Source: a virus
Virus record (IMG/VR): IMGVR_UViG_3300034101_000735
Coordinates: 1-24,344 of that record
Reading direction: 5' to 3' (one strand)
DNA length: 24,344 nucleotides
In this document: piece after piece, positions 3,321 to 9,690 of the stretch
How positions within the stretch are numbered: position 1 is the first letter of the stretch
Layout: each line of letters begins with the position of its first letter
Notes under the pieces: generated by a model
Databases searched by the model: none
Seen by the model: the letters and a program-made list of their open reading frames with translations, nothing else
Told to the model about the DNA's origin: nothing
Program-made: the position numbers and the translations under genes

Positions 3321-4169
3321 ATGTCAAAAAATATAGGTAGAAGAGCATCAGCTCAAGACAACTTCATTGGCCCAAATGCACCAACTGGGCTAACCGCAGC
3401 AGACCATTTAAACGGTGTTAATAACCAACGGAATTTTAACGATGGTATGATCAACCTTTCATGGACAGCACCTGCATCAGGAAACGCTCCAACACAGTAC
3501 AAGATATTTAGAAGTGGAGTAGAAGTAGGAACAGTAAATGCTCCTACTACTACATTCTCTAATACTGGATTAGTAGGTGGAACATCTTACTCTTACACAG
3601 TAAAATCAGTTGATCTCTATGGAACATCAGCAGATTCTAATACAGCATCAGCAACAGCAACAACAAAGCCAGGGGCTCCAAAAAATGCTTCAGCGGTAGC
3701 TGGAGTTAATGCAAATACTGTTTCGTGGCAAGCACCAGATTCAAATGGTGGTACAGCAATAACTAATTACTACGTTGTTGGAAATGATGCAACAACTGCA
3801 AATACAACTGCTCTATCTGTATCAGTTGCAGACACTGCTGGAACATCTCAGTATTACAATGTTTATGCAGATAATGCTAATGGAAGATCAGGTCCTTCAA
3901 ATAACACTAATACTGTTACTACTTTGGCTCCTACTTTCTTCGCACCACCGTTCTTCCCACCGTTCTTCCCACCAAGCTTCTTCGCACCACCGTTCTTCCC
4001 ACCGTTCTTCCCACCAAGCTTCTTCGCACCACCAAGCTTCTTTGCGCCACCAAGCTTCTTTGCACCACCGTTTTTCCCACCAAGCTTCTTTGCGCCACCA
4101 AGCTTCTTCGCACCACCAGTCTTCTTCGCACCACCGACATTTGGTGGAGGATTCATTAGAATCTACTAA
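3321..4169 (+). CDS. Two-Fn3-domain virion protein with Pro/Phe-rich repeat tail
   Basis: This 282-residue protein has a good ribosome site (AGGAGA, 3310-3315). Residues about 20-115 and 117-200 are two fibronectin type III domains. The first shows LSWTAPASGNAPTQYKIFR, the GLVGGTSYSYTVKSVD turn and a following strand; the second shows VSWQAPDSNGGTAITNY and YYNVYADNANG. Fn3 modules are common decorations of phage virion proteins and often bind carbohydrate. Residues about 204-273 are a low-complexity tail of FFAPP, FFPP and SFFAPP units, followed by FGGGFIRIY. The tail is strongly hydrophobic and proline-rich and carries no charge. It lies directly upstream of an operon of prolyl-hydroxylase-like enzymes, so it is a candidate substrate (inference). 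The exact place in the virion is unknown. Confidence 0.8.
   Translation: MSKNIGRRASAQDNFIGPNAPTGLTAADHLNGVNNQRNFNDGMINLSWTAPASGNAPTQYKIFRSGVEVGTVNAPTTTFSNTGLVGGTSYSYTVKSVDLYGTSADSNTASATATTKPGAPKNASAVAGVNANTVSWQAPDSNGGTAITNYYVVGNDATTANTTALSVSVADTAGTSQYYNVYADNANGRSGPSNNTNTVTTLAPTFFAPPFFPPFFPPSFFAPPFFPPFFPPSFFAPPSFFAPPSFFAPPFFPPSFFAPPSFFAPPVFFAPPTFGGGFIRIY
3936..4139 (+). repeat. Tandem repeats encoding FFAPP/FFPP/SFFAPP
   Basis: Two identical 42-base copies (3936-3977 and 3978-4019) encode FFAPPFFPPFFPPS. They are followed by 15- and 18-base units encoding SFFAPP, FFPP and VFFAPP up to 4139. Units differ mostly at third positions (gca/gcg, ttc/ttt), so the array is maintained as protein. The exact 42-base duplication looks recent and should be prone to slippage. 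Confidence 0.9.
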
Positions 4170-4178
4170 TAGTAATAC

Positions 4179-4212
4179 GCACAATAGCAAGGGGCAACCC
4201 TTGCTATTGTGC
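4179..4212 (+). terminator. Perfect 15-bp hairpin with GCAA loop
   Basis: GCACAATAGCAAGGG (4179-4193) is exactly complementary to 4198-4212, around a GCAA loop (a GNRA tetraloop). It begins ten bases after the stop codon of the Fn3 gene. There is no clean T run behind it (the next bases are TGTATAG), so intrinsic termination may be incomplete or the hairpin may mainly stabilise the upstream message. It separates the adhesion genes from the oxygenase operon. Confidence 0.65.
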
Positions 4213-4235
4213 TGTATAGACATAAATGCTACAAT
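4207..4235 (+). promoter_or_regulatory. Promoter of the oxygenase operon
   Basis: TTGTGC (4207-4212), a 17-base spacer and TACAAT (4230-4235) preceded by TGC give a good extended -10 promoter. The predicted first transcribed base, about seven after the -10, is the A of the ATG at 4242, so the message would be leaderless. The -35 box lies inside the right arm of the preceding hairpin. Confidence 0.6.
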
Positions 4236-4241
4236 GTATAC

Positions 4242-4955
4242 ATGACAAATTTAAACAATGAATATTCATTTTCTTCTAAAGAGCAGCTTTTCCCAGGCGT
4301 TTGGGTCTATAGAGATGCTATAAAAAAAGAAATTGACGTTATTAATAGATTAAATGAAATTGGAAAATCTGCTATAGAGGATAAAGATTCCAGGTACGAG
4401 TGGACCTTTGGTTATGTAGGATATAGCGAAAAAATTCCGTCTTATAGAGATTGTGAAGATATTAAAATTGGCGAAATTAAAAATCCTAGGTCTAAAACAG
4501 AAACCCTTGTATCTAGTCTTTGGTCAGATTTAAAGGAAACTCAATCTGGGCCAGTAGTAGATTACTGCAATATGCATAACGTTAAGATGAATTATTGGGA
4601 AGTAATGAATTGCATTAGATACGGAGAAGGCCAGCATTTTCAAGAGCATGCAGACCATGGATTTTCTTATAGCGCTACAGTATCTTTAGTTGGCTACATT
4701 AACGACGATTATGAAGGCGGCAATTTATATTTCCCTAAAATTAATTTAGACATTAAGCCAAAAGCTGGAGATCTTTATATCTTTCCTTCTACCTATTTGT
4801 TTTCTCATAGAGCAATGCCAGTTAAATCTGGTATGAAATTTTCAATTGTAACAATGTTAGACTATAACGATCACGCACATAGACAAGAGTTTATAGAAAT
4901 GAGATCTAAGTGGGTTGAGCAAGACCTACAATCTGGCAAAAATCAAAATGCATAA
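4242..4955 (+). CDS. 2OG-Fe(II) oxygenase 1 (prolyl-hydroxylase-like)
   Basis: This 237-residue protein belongs to the 2-oxoglutarate/Fe(II)-dependent dioxygenases of the prolyl 4-hydroxylase-like group, which oxidise a substrate while turning 2-oxoglutarate and O2 into succinate and CO2. The core is a jelly roll. The iron ligands are H136 and D138 (HxD in FQEHADHG) and distal H189 (FSHRAMP). K199, exactly ten residues after H189 as in prolyl 4-hydroxylases, would bind 2-oxoglutarate. Between them is YINDDYEGGNLYFP and IKPKAGDLYIFPS, shared with the sister genes. I chose ATG 4242 because the in-frame GTG at 4209 lies in a hairpin and upstream of the promoter. There is no Shine-Dalgarno site, so translation is probably leaderless. 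It is the first gene of the operon. The substrate is unknown. Confidence 0.85.
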   Translation: MTNLNNEYSFSSKEQLFPGVWVYRDAIKKEIDVINRLNEIGKSAIEDKDSRYEWTFGYVGYSEKIPSYRDCEDIKIGEIKNPRSKTETLVSSLWSDLKETQSGPVVDYCNMHNVKMNYWEVMNCIRYGEGQHFQEHADHGFSYSATVSLVGYINDDYEGGNLYFPKINLDIKPKAGDLYIFPSTYLFSHRAMPVKSGMKFSIVTMLDYNDHAHRQEFIEMRSKWVEQDLQSGKNQNA

Positions 4956-5670
4956 TATAGAGGCATATGTTATAAGACAAGGTCTTGGTACCCTTAGCAG
5001 CTTAACAGCTAAAAGAGACTGGATGGATAATACGTTTGATGCCCACGCATACAAATGTTTTCCAGTTAGTTTAACGAATCAGTTAGGCTGGGGAATATCA
5101 TTTCCAGAAGACATATCTTTTATTTGGGATGGAATTTCAGATAGTACGCCAGAACATGTTAAAATTTTATCTGGAGAAAAATATGCATACCCTGGAAGAG
5201 CAAACGGAACAATAAGTTTTAATACTGGGATAATGTTTAAAACAGATGAAAATCTGACTCTTCTTTCAATGCCCGTTCCAAACCTTTTTATTGATGGGGC
5301 TGTGCCGTTTACAACATTAATTAGTACCTCATTTTTTGGAGGAGAGCTGCCAGTAGCTTGGATGATAACAAAAGCAAATGAGGTTATCACAATAAAGGCT
5401 GGCACTCCAATTATTGCAGTCATACCAATAGACTTATTGGCAATAAATAATTCAGAAATAACAATGAAGCCACTATCTGATCTTCCAGAGCCCGCATTTG
5501 ACTCTAATGAATACTCTAAGGTAATATATGATTTAAATAGGACTGCTAACTGGTCTAATTTTTATAGAGACGCAGTAGACCATTTAAAGAGGAAAATAGG
5601 TTCTCATCAAGTAAAAGCAATAAGGCTAAAAGTAAATAATGATATAATGAATAAAGGAGAAACTAAATGA
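4948..5670 (+). CDS. DUF6065-like protein of unknown function
   Basis: This 240-residue protein overlaps the previous gene by eight bases and the next by four (ATGA), so it is translated as part of the oxygenase operon. It is not a 2OG oxygenase: there is no HxD...H pattern. The segment RDWMDNTFDAHAYKCFPVSL followed by NQLGWGI and WDG, and later GIMFKTDENLTLLSMPVPN and PVAWMITKANEVITIKAGTP, match what I remember of the DUF6065 family, whose function is unknown to me. An in-frame TTG at 4915 would add eleven residues, but neither start has a ribosome site; I prefer ATG 4948 because of coupling to the upstream stop. The C-terminal 50 residues are basic and helical. The family assignment is from memory and should be tested. 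Confidence 0.6.
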   Translation: MHNIEAYVIRQGLGTLSSLTAKRDWMDNTFDAHAYKCFPVSLTNQLGWGISFPEDISFIWDGISDSTPEHVKILSGEKYAYPGRANGTISFNTGIMFKTDENLTLLSMPVPNLFIDGAVPFTTLISTSFFGGELPVAWMITKANEVITIKAGTPIIAVIPIDLLAINNSEITMKPLSDLPEPAFDSNEYSKVIYDLNRTANWSNFYRDAVDHLKRKIGSHQVKAIRLKVNNDIMNKGETK

Positions 5671-6341
5671 AACTAGAAAATAATTGGAATGGCAATCAGC
5701 CTAAGTCTATTACCCCATCTGGATTTTTTGGAAATTCTTCTAGTAATATTGTAGAAATTAGAGACTTCCTTAGCATAGATGAGCGCAAGAGACTTATGGA
5801 CTTCGCATTAAATAATAAAATATGGGATGTAACAGAAACTCATAGAGACGAAGATGGTCTGGTTCTCTATGATCATACAGTTTGGGAAAACAGAGTCTGC
5901 ACATACAACTCTTTAATGGCTTCAGATCCAAGCATATTGGAGCTAATTTATAGCATGATTGAAAGATTAAAAGTTGAAGTTGATGCATTCTTTAATGTTG
6001 ATGCAAAAGAAACTGGCCCAGCAATTGTCAGATGGCCAGTTGGAACAAGACAAGAACCTCATGCAGACAAAGAATTTCATTCTGGTCCTGAAAAAGGTAG
6101 AGCAAATGACTTCCCTTGGTACGATTTAGCAGGACTATTTTATTTTAATGACGACTACGAAGGCGGAGAATTATATTTTCCGCAACACGGAATTGAGTTT
6201 CAGCCAGTTGCTGGAGCAGCATATTTTTTCCCAGGTGACATGAACTACACCCACGGAGTACGTCCAGTAAAGTCGGGAAATAGATTTACATCGCCATTTT
6301 TTTGGACGATAAAAAAACATACAGGAGAAAAACAGCCATGA
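5667..6341 (+). CDS. 2OG-Fe(II) oxygenase 2
   Basis: This 224-residue protein is the second complete dioxygenase of the operon. Iron ligands are H132 and D134 (EPHADKE) and H196 (YTHGVRP); R206, ten residues after the distal histidine, would bind 2-oxoglutarate. The central FYFNDDYEGGELYFPQHGI and the GAAYFFPGD strand mark the jelly roll. The insertion between HxD and the next strand (FHSGPEKGRANDFPWYDL) is longer than in oxygenase 1, which suggests a different substrate pocket. The start codon overlaps the previous stop (ATGA) and follows a good AAAGGAGA site at 5653-5660. The family resembles oxygenases often found among structural genes of aquatic phages; the substrate is unknown. Confidence 0.85.
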   Translation: MKLENNWNGNQPKSITPSGFFGNSSSNIVEIRDFLSIDERKRLMDFALNNKIWDVTETHRDEDGLVLYDHTVWENRVCTYNSLMASDPSILELIYSMIERLKVEVDAFFNVDAKETGPAIVRWPVGTRQEPHADKEFHSGPEKGRANDFPWYDLAGLFYFNDDYEGGELYFPQHGIEFQPVAGAAYFFPGDMNYTHGVRPVKSGNRFTSPFFWTIKKHTGEKQP

Positions 6342-7156
6342 GCGAATTAAATCACATAGAACTTTATCCAAAAATTGATGTATACAGAAATGTTTTAGAT
6401 AACCCAAATGAACTGTATGAAATTATGAACCAGTCTGAAAAAACGTCAGATGGAAAATATTTTTTAAGAACATGGGACCAGTGGGCACATTTTGGTACCT
6501 ATACACAGAAAAAAGATATGGGAGAAGTTTCTCAAGATATCTTGTCTGAAGAGATGTATATTAAAGAAAAGAAGTTTGTTGAAGAAGTAGAAGCGGCATA
6601 CACCAAAGTAGTTTTAGATTATGTGGAGAGACACGGAATTGAGCTACCAGAGGGATGGCATTTTAGTGGTTGCTCATACTCTAAATATAATGCAAAAATT
6701 GACACGCTGCTTAATAAAATGACAATGCAATATCATACAGACCATATAACTTCTCAAAAAGATATGCCAGGTGATAAATTTTTCATAACATGTACAATGT
6801 ACATTAATGATGATTATGACGGAGGAGATATTGAGTTTTATATTGACGGCAAGCTTATTAACCATAAGCCAAAGGCAGGAGATATACTTGTATTCCCATC
6901 AACTGAGCCTTATTACCATGGAGTAAAAACAATTAACACTAATGAGAAATTTTTTGTTAGAAACTTTATAATGACTCCACACAACGGAACAGAAGAGTGG
7001 CTTGCTAATCAAAGAAGATATGGGGCCTACGCTTGGGCTAAGATGGAAAAAGAAAGAATCGAGTATGAAGATAAAAGAAATATGATTTATTTTAATGACG
7101 GAGAAATACTTCCTTACGAAGAATACATAGCTATTAAAAAGGGTCAGGTGAATTAA
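6338..7156 (+). CDS. 2OG-Fe(II) oxygenase 3, with C-terminal extension
   Basis: This 272-residue protein is the longest oxygenase of the group. Iron ligands are H133 and D135 (QYHTDHI) and H194 (YYHGVKT); K204, ten after the distal histidine, is the likely 2-oxoglutarate contact. The shared core reads MYINDDYDGGDIEFY and NHKPKAGDILVFPS, with a DGG in place of the usual EGG. About 60 residues after the core form a charged, Tyr-rich extension ending in IAIKKGQVN. I chose ATG 6338 (ATGA overlap with the upstream stop, AGGAG at 6323-6327) over the in-frame ATG at 6302, which lies well inside the previous gene. Substrate unknown. Confidence 0.85.
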   Translation: MSELNHIELYPKIDVYRNVLDNPNELYEIMNQSEKTSDGKYFLRTWDQWAHFGTYTQKKDMGEVSQDILSEEMYIKEKKFVEEVEAAYTKVVLDYVERHGIELPEGWHFSGCSYSKYNAKIDTLLNKMTMQYHTDHITSQKDMPGDKFFITCTMYINDDYDGGDIEFYIDGKLINHKPKAGDILVFPSTEPYYHGVKTINTNEKFFVRNFIMTPHNGTEEWLANQRRYGAYAWAKMEKERIEYEDKRNMIYFNDGEILPYEEYIAIKKGQVN

Positions 7157-7157
7157 T

Positions 7158-7907
7158 ATGGAAAGAAATATGATTATAACTAGGCACAAGCCAGATATTG
7201 TGGAGTATGAAAACTTTTTGACACCAGAAGAGTGTAAATCTGTTATCGATGTTCTAGCAATCAAAATGGAAAAAGAACAATTAAAGTGGATGCCTATTTC
7301 ATTTTATGAATCATATTCTTCAGGCACTCCAGATCTAGATGATCCAGACACAATTGCTTGTGGATTACCAGGAGATTTTTTTCAAGTTCTTCGACAAAGA
7401 GTTATAGATGCTACAGCAGAAATGGCTGGTAAAAATCCAGAGCAAATGTCTCAGATAAGCTGGCATTCCCAGAGATGGGCACCAGGAGCGTTTGCAAATA
7501 TGCATTCTGACAATACATCTAATGACGGAGTTTCTGGAGCATTTACTAGAAGCAGATACGCAACATTTCTTTATTTAAATGACGATTTTGAAGACGGAAT
7601 TTTAAATTTTAAGCACGGTCTATCAATTGCTCCTAAAACTGGAACGCTTGTTACATTCGCTGGCGGTTTTGAAAATATGCATGAAGTTACTACAGTAAAG
7701 AAAGCTATCAGGTACACCCTTGGATCATTCTGGGATGACAGAGAAGAGTCTGACTATCCACAAGAAGTAAGAGATAAGTGGGCAGAAGAGCTTGCTGAAG
7801 TAAGAGCATACCAAAAGGTGGAAGCCTCAGAATGGGAAGCAATTAGAGAAAAAGGATTAAGAATAACTGCTCAGGGAGAAAAGTACCCAGCCAAGGATGT
7901 AGAGTAA
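7158..7907 (+). CDS. 2OG-Fe(II) oxygenase 4, divergent
   Basis: This 249-residue protein is a dioxygenase with H116 and D118 (NMHSDNT), distal H175 (NMHEVTT) and R185 ten residues later. The N-terminal part, ENFLTPEECKSVIDVL, is typical of P4H-like phage and bacterial proteins. The core motif is changed to YLNDDFEDGILNF, so the first Gly of EGG is Asp, and GTLVTFAGGF replaces the usual IFPS strand. The last 60 residues are a highly charged helical extension (Lys, Glu, Arg). It begins two bases after the previous gene with an AGGTGA ribosome site at 7146-7151. It is the most divergent of the five, so a distinct substrate or partner is plausible (inference). Confidence 0.85.
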   Translation: MERNMIITRHKPDIVEYENFLTPEECKSVIDVLAIKMEKEQLKWMPISFYESYSSGTPDLDDPDTIACGLPGDFFQVLRQRVIDATAEMAGKNPEQMSQISWHSQRWAPGAFANMHSDNTSNDGVSGAFTRSRYATFLYLNDDFEDGILNFKHGLSIAPKTGTLVTFAGGFENMHEVTTVKKAIRYTLGSFWDDREESDYPQEVRDKWAEELAEVRAYQKVEASEWEAIREKGLRITAQGEKYPAKDVE

Positions 7908-8557
7908 TGCAAAACAATGTAGAATTTAAACAATTCATAATGTTTGACTTACAAGTTTTAGATCCTAATATTTGGTACTGGGAAAATGCTCTAAGTTTTC
8001 CAGAGTACCTTGTTCAATTCATTGAAGAAGTAGACTCTGATGAACTGTCTTATGACAGAATTTCTAAGTGGAACAATTGGGTTGCAAGTAATGATGAGTC
8101 TATTATTTATGGAGCAACAAAAAATATAGTTCCATCTAATTTAAAACAAAGTACTGGCTCAGATGCTACAGATAAAAAAACATTGTATATTAGCAACAGC
8201 TTTTTGATGGCATTTGAAATGTGCTCAGATAGATATCTGAGTGGTCATGGTCTAGATAAAAATAATTATAACTTACAGCTAGATCAAGTTCCTATTAAAA
8301 AATGGAATCAAGGACAGTGGATGGGCCCTCATTTTGATGGACAAGATGGCGATACATCGCTTGCGTTTTCTCTTGTTGCATATATAAATGATGATTACGA
8401 AGGTGGAGAAATTCATTTCCCAAATCAAAATATTACTATAAAGCCAAAAGCTGGTAGCATGATAATGTTCCCTTCACAGCTTCCATATTTACATGAGGTA
8501 AAACCTATCATTTCTGGCACTAGATATATGAGTCCATCTCACGTATATATTAAGTAA
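7907..8557 (+). CDS. 2OG-Fe(II) oxygenase 5
   Basis: This 216-residue protein closes the operon. Iron ligands are H142 and D144 (MGPHFDGQDGD) and H196 (YLHEVKP), with R206 ten residues after for 2-oxoglutarate. The core reads AYINDDYEGGEIHFPNQN and IKPKAGSMIMFPS, very close to oxygenase 1, so these two look like the nearest relatives in the set. The start ATG overlaps the previous stop by one base (TAATG). An internal ATG at 7940 is possible and would remove eleven residues. The protein ends soon after the last jelly-roll strand, without an extension. A new promoter follows directly at 8563. The substrate is unknown. Confidence 0.85.
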   Translation: MQNNVEFKQFIMFDLQVLDPNIWYWENALSFPEYLVQFIEEVDSDELSYDRISKWNNWVASNDESIIYGATKNIVPSNLKQSTGSDATDKKTLYISNSFLMAFEMCSDRYLSGHGLDKNNYNLQLDQVPIKKWNQGQWMGPHFDGQDGDTSLAFSLVAYINDDYEGGEIHFPNQNITIKPKAGSMIMFPSQLPYLHEVKPIISGTRYMSPSHVYIK

Positions 8558-8562
8558 ATTGG

Positions 8563-8571
8563 TGGTATAAT
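8563..8571 (+). promoter_or_regulatory. Extended -10 promoter of the collagen-like fibre
   Basis: TGG plus a perfect TATAAT (8566-8571) is followed by six A residues and then the ATG at 8578. The predicted first transcribed base is the A of ATG, so the message would be leaderless. No convincing -35 hexamer is seen, as is usual for extended -10 promoters. Confidence 0.55.
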
Positions 8572-8577
8572 AAAAAA

Positions 8578-9690
8578 ATGAGCACAACAGGTAAAGGGTT
8601 TAGATATCCGCAATACACAGATACTCCAGATGTTCCTAGAGACTTGGGCTATCTTGCTGCCGACGTAGATGCCTACTTGGATGATCATCCAGGCCCACAG
8701 GGGCCTTCAGGCACCTTATCAATAGGCTCTGTAACAACTGTTAGCGCATCAACTCCAGCATCAGTAGTAAATGTTGGAACCCCAGAAGCAGCAATACTAA
8801 ACCTAACATTACCTAGAGGAGTAGATGGAATAATTGGAGGCCCAGGACCATCTAATATTCTTTCCATTGGAACAGTCGAAGAAGGTGTATCTGCAGCTGC
8901 TACAATAACTGGAACTAGCCCATCTCAAACCCTTAACCTTGTTTTGCCACAGGGACCAGAAGGGCCACAAGGCCCACAAGGAATTCCTGGACCAACTACG
9001 CTAGCAATTGGAACAACAACAACTGGCGCAGCTGGAACAAATGCATCTGTTACAAATACTGGAACATCAACTAACGCAGTATTTGCATTTACAATTCCAA
9101 GAGGTAACACAGGATTAACAGGACCACAGGGTCCACAAGGAATTCCTGGATCAAGTGCAACCATTGATCCAATTCCAACAACAATATCTTTAAATATTCC
9201 TACAACATCTGGTTACGGAGTAAATTCAAACTGGTATCCATTAGCAAACAACTTATTTTCAATAGGTCAGCCTATAGATGCAGGTGCTGGAGTAACATCA
9301 AATAGATTTTGGAAAACAATATACTCTAACACTGGAACAATAAATACTTCTGATGAAAGACTAAAAACAAGCATTCTTTCTTCCGACCTAGGACTAGATT
9401 TTATAAACAATTTAAATCCAGTAAAATATAAATTTATTGAGGGCGGCAAAGAAGTAGTTGATGGAGATATAGTTTCAGTTCCTGGAACAAGAATTCATTA
9501 TGGACTTATAGCTCAGCAAGTAAAAGAAGCCTTAGATGAATCTGGAGTAGAAGATTTTGCAGGCTGGGTAAAGATTGACATGTCAGAAGAAGATTCGATG
9601 CAAGGATTGAGATACGATCAGTTTATATCACCACTCATTAAAGCAGTACAAGAGCTTACAGCGAGAGTTAAAGCACTAGAAGAGGTTTAA
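8578..9690 (+). CDS. Collagen-like fibre with S74-type intramolecular chaperone
   Basis: This 370-residue protein starts with an adaptor segment (residues 1-35), then has three modules of a small beta domain (such as TLAIGTTTTGAAGTNASVTN) each followed by Gly-X-Y collagen-like triplets (GPQGPSG, GPEGPQGPQGIPGP, GPQGPQGIPG). Residues about 250-370 are an intramolecular chaperone of the peptidase S74 type. TSDERLK holds the expected Ser-Lys pair (S258, K263), and HYGLIAQQVKEALDE and LRYDQFISPLIKAVQELTAR match the conserved later part. In this family the C-terminal chaperone trimerises the fibre and then cuts itself off before or at the Ser. The collagen triplets put Pro in both X and Y positions and lie just downstream of five prolyl-hydroxylase-like genes. 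The start has no good ribosome site, as expected for a leaderless message. Confidence 0.9.
   Translation: MSTTGKGFRYPQYTDTPDVPRDLGYLAADVDAYLDDHPGPQGPSGTLSIGSVTTVSASTPASVVNVGTPEAAILNLTLPRGVDGIIGGPGPSNILSIGTVEEGVSAAATITGTSPSQTLNLVLPQGPEGPQGPQGIPGPTTLAIGTTTTGAAGTNASVTNTGTSTNAVFAFTIPRGNTGLTGPQGPQGIPGSSATIDPIPTTISLNIPTTSGYGVNSNWYPLANNLFSIGQPIDAGAGVTSNRFWKTIYSNTGTINTSDERLKTSILSSDLGLDFINNLNPVKYKFIEGGKEVVDGDIVSVPGTRIHYGLIAQQVKEALDESGVEDFAGWVKIDMSEEDSMQGLRYDQFISPLIKAVQELTARVKALEEV

Follow-up and report, generated by a model that had tools for sequence, protein, structure and literature searches.

Aquatic phages commonly encode 2-oxoglutarate (2OG)- and Fe(II)-dependent oxygenases, which have usually been guessed to serve host metabolism. 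T4-like cyanophages carry one to five such genes per genome (PMC3037559) and the phage S-SCSM1 carries 24 (PMC9602691); nitrogen metabolism, DNA repair, capsule and secondary metabolites are among the suggestions in the portions of the literature consulted (PMC3037559, PMC7824862, PMC9602691). Here we describe an array of six abutting or overlapping genes, five PF13640 2OG-Fe(II) oxygenases and one DUF6065 gene, at positions 4242-8557 of a 24,344-nt stretch of viral DNA (IMG/VR record IMGVR_UViG_3300034101_000735, positions 1-24,344), referred to as the window. The phage of the window resembles the T4-like cyanophages and S-SCSM1 in being an aquatic phage with many PF13640-type genes, whose function is uninvestigated in the consulted parts of those reports. 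Unlike it, the T4-like cyanophages are myoviruses, and those same parts do not describe an ordered set of such genes linked with a Phe-Pro tail (PMC3037559, PMC9602691).

Outside of phages, the enzymes nearest to the array are the prolyl 4-hydroxylases (P4H) of Bacillus (3itq/5hv0), virus PBCV-1 (5c5t) and Pseudomonas putida (4iw3), together with human P3H1 and PHD2. These share with the array a PF13640 core, an HxD...H motif and a basic 2OG anchor ten residues further on; they differ in acting singly, on collagen, HIF or EF-Tu, whereas the array holds five distinct orthogroups of putative hydroxylases in one phage cassette beside a Phe-Pro repeat. Mimivirus L230, a collagen lysyl hydroxylase fused to a glycosyltransferase in a giant virus of amoebae, provides a precedent for a virus-encoded 2OG hydroxylase able to modify the virus's own repetitive fibre-type protein. 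The array, unlike L230, contains no glycosyltransferase, and its presence is not tied to a collagen-like protein. No report of hydroxylated phage virion proteins was found in searches of open-licence literature. We propose that the array is, with fair probability, a protein-modification cassette in which prolyl-type hydroxylases act mainly on Phe-Pro tails, both that of a neighboring fibronectin type III (Fn3) protein and that of another tail-region protein whose gene lies a few kb upstream in relatives.

Capsid and portal relatives of the window (at least 600 stretches) were gathered from IMG/VR, and the distribution of the array was surveyed in 124 related loci, all of which reach 9 kb or more upstream from the portal gene. 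The array and the Phe-Pro repeat occurred together in 70 loci and were both missing from 48. The repeat never occurred alone, and the array was present with no detected repeat in six. Missing sequence explains five of these six: the repeat protein of L411 lies directly upstream, outside the first-fetched locus, the genome to which L111 belongs has the tail, and in L113, L398 and L424 the locus or contig ends before the tail position. This leaves L193, which has a shortened repeat while its close relative L103 has the full one. The array changes nine times on the portal tree, with all eight independent pairs concordant with the repeat (sign test p ~0.008). Over whole contigs, array-free relatives of 23-95 kb have mostly 0-1 PF13640 matches and 0-2 FFxPP matches, the latter only chance occurrences, as against 5-12 PF13640 matches and mostly 5-23 FFxPP matches in array contigs, the remaining ones having variant repeats. 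Among Fn3 homologues, tail and array were found together in 75 cases, neither in four, the array only in one (L193) and the tail only in six, these six entries being the second Phe-Pro protein of array contigs. Presence of the array is tied to the Phe-Pro tail, and the two are co-inherited.

The collagen-like gene on the other side of the array behaves differently. It is kept in 25 of the 48 array-free loci and absent from 25 of the 76 array loci, giving no association over the survey. Among independent pairs on the portal tree, an average of 0.4 show it changing in line with the array and 3.8 show it going against the array. A preliminary description of this DNA had suggested that the phage hydroxylates its own fibres and had proposed to ask whether oxygenase count correlates with collagen-like or Pro-rich fibres across related phages. 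For the Phe-Pro repeat such a correlation is borne out, over whole contigs and at eight independent points of the portal tree; for the collagen-like fibre it fails. Because the array tracks only the former, co-inheritance supports the Phe-Pro tail as a substrate and support for the collagen-like fibre is lost; the latter was rejected as a substrate on the locus counts and tree pairs. The gene flanking the array does encode Gly-X-Y triplets, but at most six are consecutive and the protein ends in an S74 chaperone domain, a correction to its earlier description as a collagen-like fibre. Two further array-free relatives (G002 and G023) have two to four oxygenases over the whole contig. At a comparable position, some array-free relatives encode modification-type proteins of other kinds and different Hint proteins that contain Pro. 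In G002 (L247/L248), whose Fn3 protein is without a repeat, a different enzyme set occupies the corresponding place (73306-80028) and comprises a pair of oxygenases along with weak DUF6065-like proteins and unknown ones.

Table 1. Features in and around the oxygenase array of the window
Feature	Positions	Strand	Evidence
Fn3-domain tail-region protein, 282 aa, C-terminal FFAPP/FFPP repeat; proposed substrate	3321..4169	+	Pfam fn3 E 5.3e-9; PHROG tail matches; array-adjacent repeat kept in relatives
Phe-Pro repeat, residues 206-272, ~20 Pro per 50 aa	3936..4136	+	read from translation
Terminator-like hairpin between Fn3 gene and array, perfect 15-bp stem, GCAA loop	4179..4212	+	RNA fold -33.3 kcal/mol, z -7.7
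Putative extended -10 promoter element TGCTACAAT, six nt ahead of g1 ATG	4227..4235	+	relatives conserve TGnTACAAT at equal distance
2OG-Fe(II) oxygenase slot 1 (g1), 237 aa	4242..4955	+	PF13640 E 2.5e-13; best PDB match Bacillus P4H
DUF6065 protein (g2), 240 aa; dUTPase-like fold, probably no dUTPase	4948..5670	+	PF19541 E 1.6e-28; AlphaFold2 (AF2) pLDDT 85; Foldseek top matches dUTPases
2OG-Fe(II) oxygenase slot 2 (g3), 224 aa	5667..6341	+	PF13640; PDB P4H/P3H1
2OG-Fe(II) oxygenase slot 3 (g4), 272 aa	6338..7156	+	PF13640; AF2 pLDDT 92.9; Foldseek P3H1, PHD2, P. putida P4H
2OG-Fe(II) oxygenase slot 4 (g5), 249 aa	7158..7907	+	PF13640; PDB P3H1/P4H
2OG-Fe(II) oxygenase slot 5 (g6), 216 aa	7907..8557	+	PF13640; PDB PKHD hydroxylase, P4H, PBCV-1 P4H
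TATAAT, six nt ahead of the ATG of the collagen-like gene, its own putative promoter	8566..8571	+	read from sequence
Short-collagen-like fibre, Peptidase_S74 chaperone domain; neighbour of the array without association to it	8578..9690	+	PF13884 E 3.7e-14

The second Phe-Pro protein is related to the Fn3 protein and is encoded several kb upstream of the array in relatives; it was met only in array genomes. It lies upstream in L161 and L299, where the last residues of the two proteins are identical, and five genomes carry two Phe-Pro proteins with like ends, meaning the same last residues or a Hint domain on both: G028 (7117, 14814), G020 (45437, 53246), G022 (85102, 90792), G005 and G018. The paired ends look as if they were kept alike by one machinery. 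In many relatives (34 unique tails, including L094:953-2233, L144:705-2267, L233:165-1448, G018, G011, G005 and others) there is, after the repeat, a Hint/intein-like domain that begins C...T..G..KAKDI..GD and ends VYD...WFI..N or LVHN/AYNGC. It matches Pfam Intein_splicing with an E-value of 5.1e-5, under the family cut-off, and could self-cleave to expose the Phe-Pro tail. The repeat in another frame reads as a 156-aa TTG open reading frame (ORF) rich in His/Arg/Ser (window 3775-4245, + strand), and such other-frame ORFs at contig ends mask incomplete Phe-Pro genes (L116, L424).

All five oxygenases are intact, as previously claimed, scoring 33-51 bits against the curated PF13640 gathering cut-off of 27 and lacking internal stops. 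The catalytic residues given for g1, g3, g4, g5 and g6 were all correct (H136/D138/H189/K199; H132/D134/H196/R206; H133/D135/H194/K204; H116/D118/H175/R185; H142/D144/H196/R206), with the distal Arg/Lys ten residues past the distal His in each; the sixth gene, DUF6065, had been overlooked. Among 426 unique related oxygenases, chosen by similarity and length with the motif not a criterion, every one has the two His and the Asp, and the distal Arg/Lys is largely kept in family alignments. The ratio of nonsynonymous to synonymous substitutions (dN/dS) against six relatives is mostly 0.03-0.15 for all six genes, which shows purifying selection. Given this invariance and the low dN/dS, conservation of the catalytic residues is far beyond chance. 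Each oxygenase slot forms one clade in a quick tree (support 79-99), and the five enzymes are therefore old, separate orthogroups, which would be consistent with the earlier idea of a separate target for each enzyme. Relatives retain the order g1-DUF6065-(X)-g3-g4/g5-g6, with insertions and losses, and relatives' contigs near 110 kb carry 7-14 such oxygenase genes in total. Judged by sequence, freshwater actinophage-like siphoviruses share these six genes as a conserved cassette. A Sulfotransfer_2 gene stands just ahead of the array in two relatives (L139:990-1697, PF03567 E 3.6e-7; L113:107-811), and oxygenase, DUF6065 or Phe-Pro genes repeatedly have next to them a gene for a small protein with four Cys (DUF6171-like, E 1.9e-5) (L161:933-1169, L217:4800-5039, L228:6171-6413, G023 78120).

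The nearest relatives of the five enzymes are prolyl hydroxylases, with PKHD-type hydroxylases also near: g1, g3, g5 and g6 match Bacillus P4H, PBCV-1 P4H, P3H1 and PKHD hydroxylases in profile searches of PDB, and the predicted fold of g4 resembles those of P3H1, PHD2 and the P. putida P4H whose structure was determined together with EF-Tu. The five oxygenases are thus predicted, from profiles and models, to be most likely peptidyl (prolyl-type) hydroxylases. NCBIfam gave PKHD-like matches to the array oxygenases, all sub-threshold. Profile matches of g3 to a designed chlorophyll protein and of g1 to interleukin-10 were rejected as artefacts of short stretches. PHROG 2297, 274 and 3531 ('DNA endonuclease', 'DNA endonuclease V', 'ferrochelatase') match the array oxygenases across the oxygenase domain, and these labels look like annotation carry-over.

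The DUF6065 protein scores 100 bits against the PF19541 cut-off of 26.6. Its model matches trimeric dUTPases (Foldseek probability 1.00, E 4.8e-4), with a template modelling (TM) score of 0.65 by target length and 0.43 by query length; a PDB sequence-profile search gave nothing solid. In a hand alignment, STSFF and AGTPI appear to stand at the positions of the dUTPase motifs GVIDADYRGE and GDRIAQ, with no Asp, and dUTPase activity thus seems unlikely, the aligned catalytic-Asp segment reading STSFF. In G018, G020 and G023, DUF6065 genes are also found elsewhere, adjacent or close to single oxygenase genes. No DUF6065 match was found among cultured phages. A first search of genome contigs found none and a second found one, a contig (L436) in a Chitinophagaceae metagenome-assembled bin that carries the same Fn3-Phe-Pro/oxygenase/DUF6065 cassette and is probably a phage fragment inside that bin.

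The array had been described as one coupled operon directly between its flanking genes. Coupling holds inside the array, where genes overlap or abut, but the hairpin, the extended -10 and the TATAAT of the collagen-like gene uncouple it from its flanks. Close relatives have differing GC-rich hairpins at the same place, yet carry TGnTACAAT at equal distance; distant relatives vary. The extended -10 emerged only through comparison of relatives, a generic sigma-70 promoter scan being uninformative (64 found vs 60 expected). Because the hairpin and the -10 element separate the array from the Fn3 gene, the array most likely forms its own leaderless transcript and is most likely not co-transcribed with neighboring genes.

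In the proposed mechanism, the cassette would be transcribed from this leaderless promoter, and each enzyme would bind Fe(II) through HxD...H and 2OG through the distal Arg/Lys. The array enzymes would then hydroxylate Pro, or neighboring residues, of the FFAPP/FFPP repeat, so that the hydrophobic tail would become more polar, or be primed for further decoration, before display on the virion; DUF6065 may play an accessory part, for instance as a scaffold or by binding the substrate. We infer the hydroxylation, its target, the virion location, the transcript start and the role of DUF6065 from the genes and their distribution. Since the array as a whole is present or absent in step with a single candidate substrate, the question is directly testable through one peptide mass shift. 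If hydroxylation of the tails is borne out, post-translational hydroxylation would be a phage means of tuning proteins of the virion surface, and the labelling of such enzymes as 'auxiliary metabolic genes' would have to be revised. A bolder version, which we consider quite unlikely, is an extensin-like display in which the hydroxylases and a repurposed dUTPase-fold partner modify virion Phe-Pro tails and, in the many relatives with a Hint domain, self-cleavage could leave a reactive C-terminus, the whole forming a tunable adhesion surface.

Several points weigh against tail hydroxylation. No modified peptide or residue has been observed, and the need for five or more enzymes on one repeat is unexplained. 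PF13640 also includes small-molecule enzymes, and these phages encode additional oxygenases outside the array. As the promoter is separate, the array could be expressed independently of the structural genes. Finally, the Fn3-Phe-Pro gene adjoins the array, and simple linkage in one cassette could yield part of the co-inheritance. Linkage falls short of a full account, since the equally near collagen-like gene does not follow the array and the second Phe-Pro protein lies several kb off.

As an alternative, the tail gene and the array may simply travel together as a host-range or host-type module, with the oxygenases acting on host metabolites, envelope or polysaccharide. The adjacency of the two would fit, as would the sulfotransferase gene joining the array in L139 and the auxiliary roles guessed for phage 2OG enzymes in the consulted parts of PMC3037559, PMC7824862 and PMC9602691; the failure of the collagen-like gene to travel with the array, the restriction of the distant second Phe-Pro protein to array genomes and the peptide hydroxylases among the best enzyme matches all speak the other way, and we hold such a module to be unlikely, while giving it some credence. 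Were the array an ordinary cluster of morons with no single function, as the many unrelated 2OG genes of phages such as S-SCSM1, with its 24 (PMC9602691, in the part consulted), might suggest, neither the order, slots and catalytic residues conserved across lineages nor the tie to the Phe-Pro tail would be expected, which makes this explanation scarcely credible.

The remaining two explanations concern the substrate. Hydroxylation mainly of the Gly-Pro fibre, on the model of animal P4H or mimivirus L230 with collagen, draws on the adjacency of the collagen-like gene and on the collagen-type hydroxylases among the closest structures; it is very improbable in view of the locus counts given above and of independent tree pairs that are more often opposite than concordant. 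Modification or repair of DNA or nucleotides by AlkB/TET-like oxygenases with a dUTPase-like partner would accommodate the fold of DUF6065 and the endonuclease labels of related PHROG families. The oxygenase profiles match prolyl and PKHD hydroxylases rather than AlkB, however, the catalytic Asp region of the dUTPase appears replaced, and the array is surrounded by tail genes and comes and goes with a tail protein; we find a nucleic acid substrate barely plausible.

Gene calls with Pfam and PHROG profiles identify the window as a 24.3 kb fragment of a siphovirus structural module, with tail-fibre genes, the Fn3 protein, the array, the short-collagen-like S74 fibre, a LamG protein, portal, protease, capsid, connector proteins and tape measure. 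Its capsid protein is 58-62% identical to those of Stanwilliamsviridae Streptomyces phages, and a homologous capsid and portal module is common to the window and Stanwilliamsviridae-like actinophages; portal, protease, capsid and tape measure follow in equal order in LilMartin, Sham and Faust. The source phage is a freshwater relative of the Stanwilliamsviridae. LilMartin and Sham differ from the window in having no oxygenase annotated within 35-37 kb around the capsid gene, and both stand without the array in the portal-tree set. Of 18 long relatives, 13 carry a WhiB gene, which suggests that the hosts may be actinobacteria.

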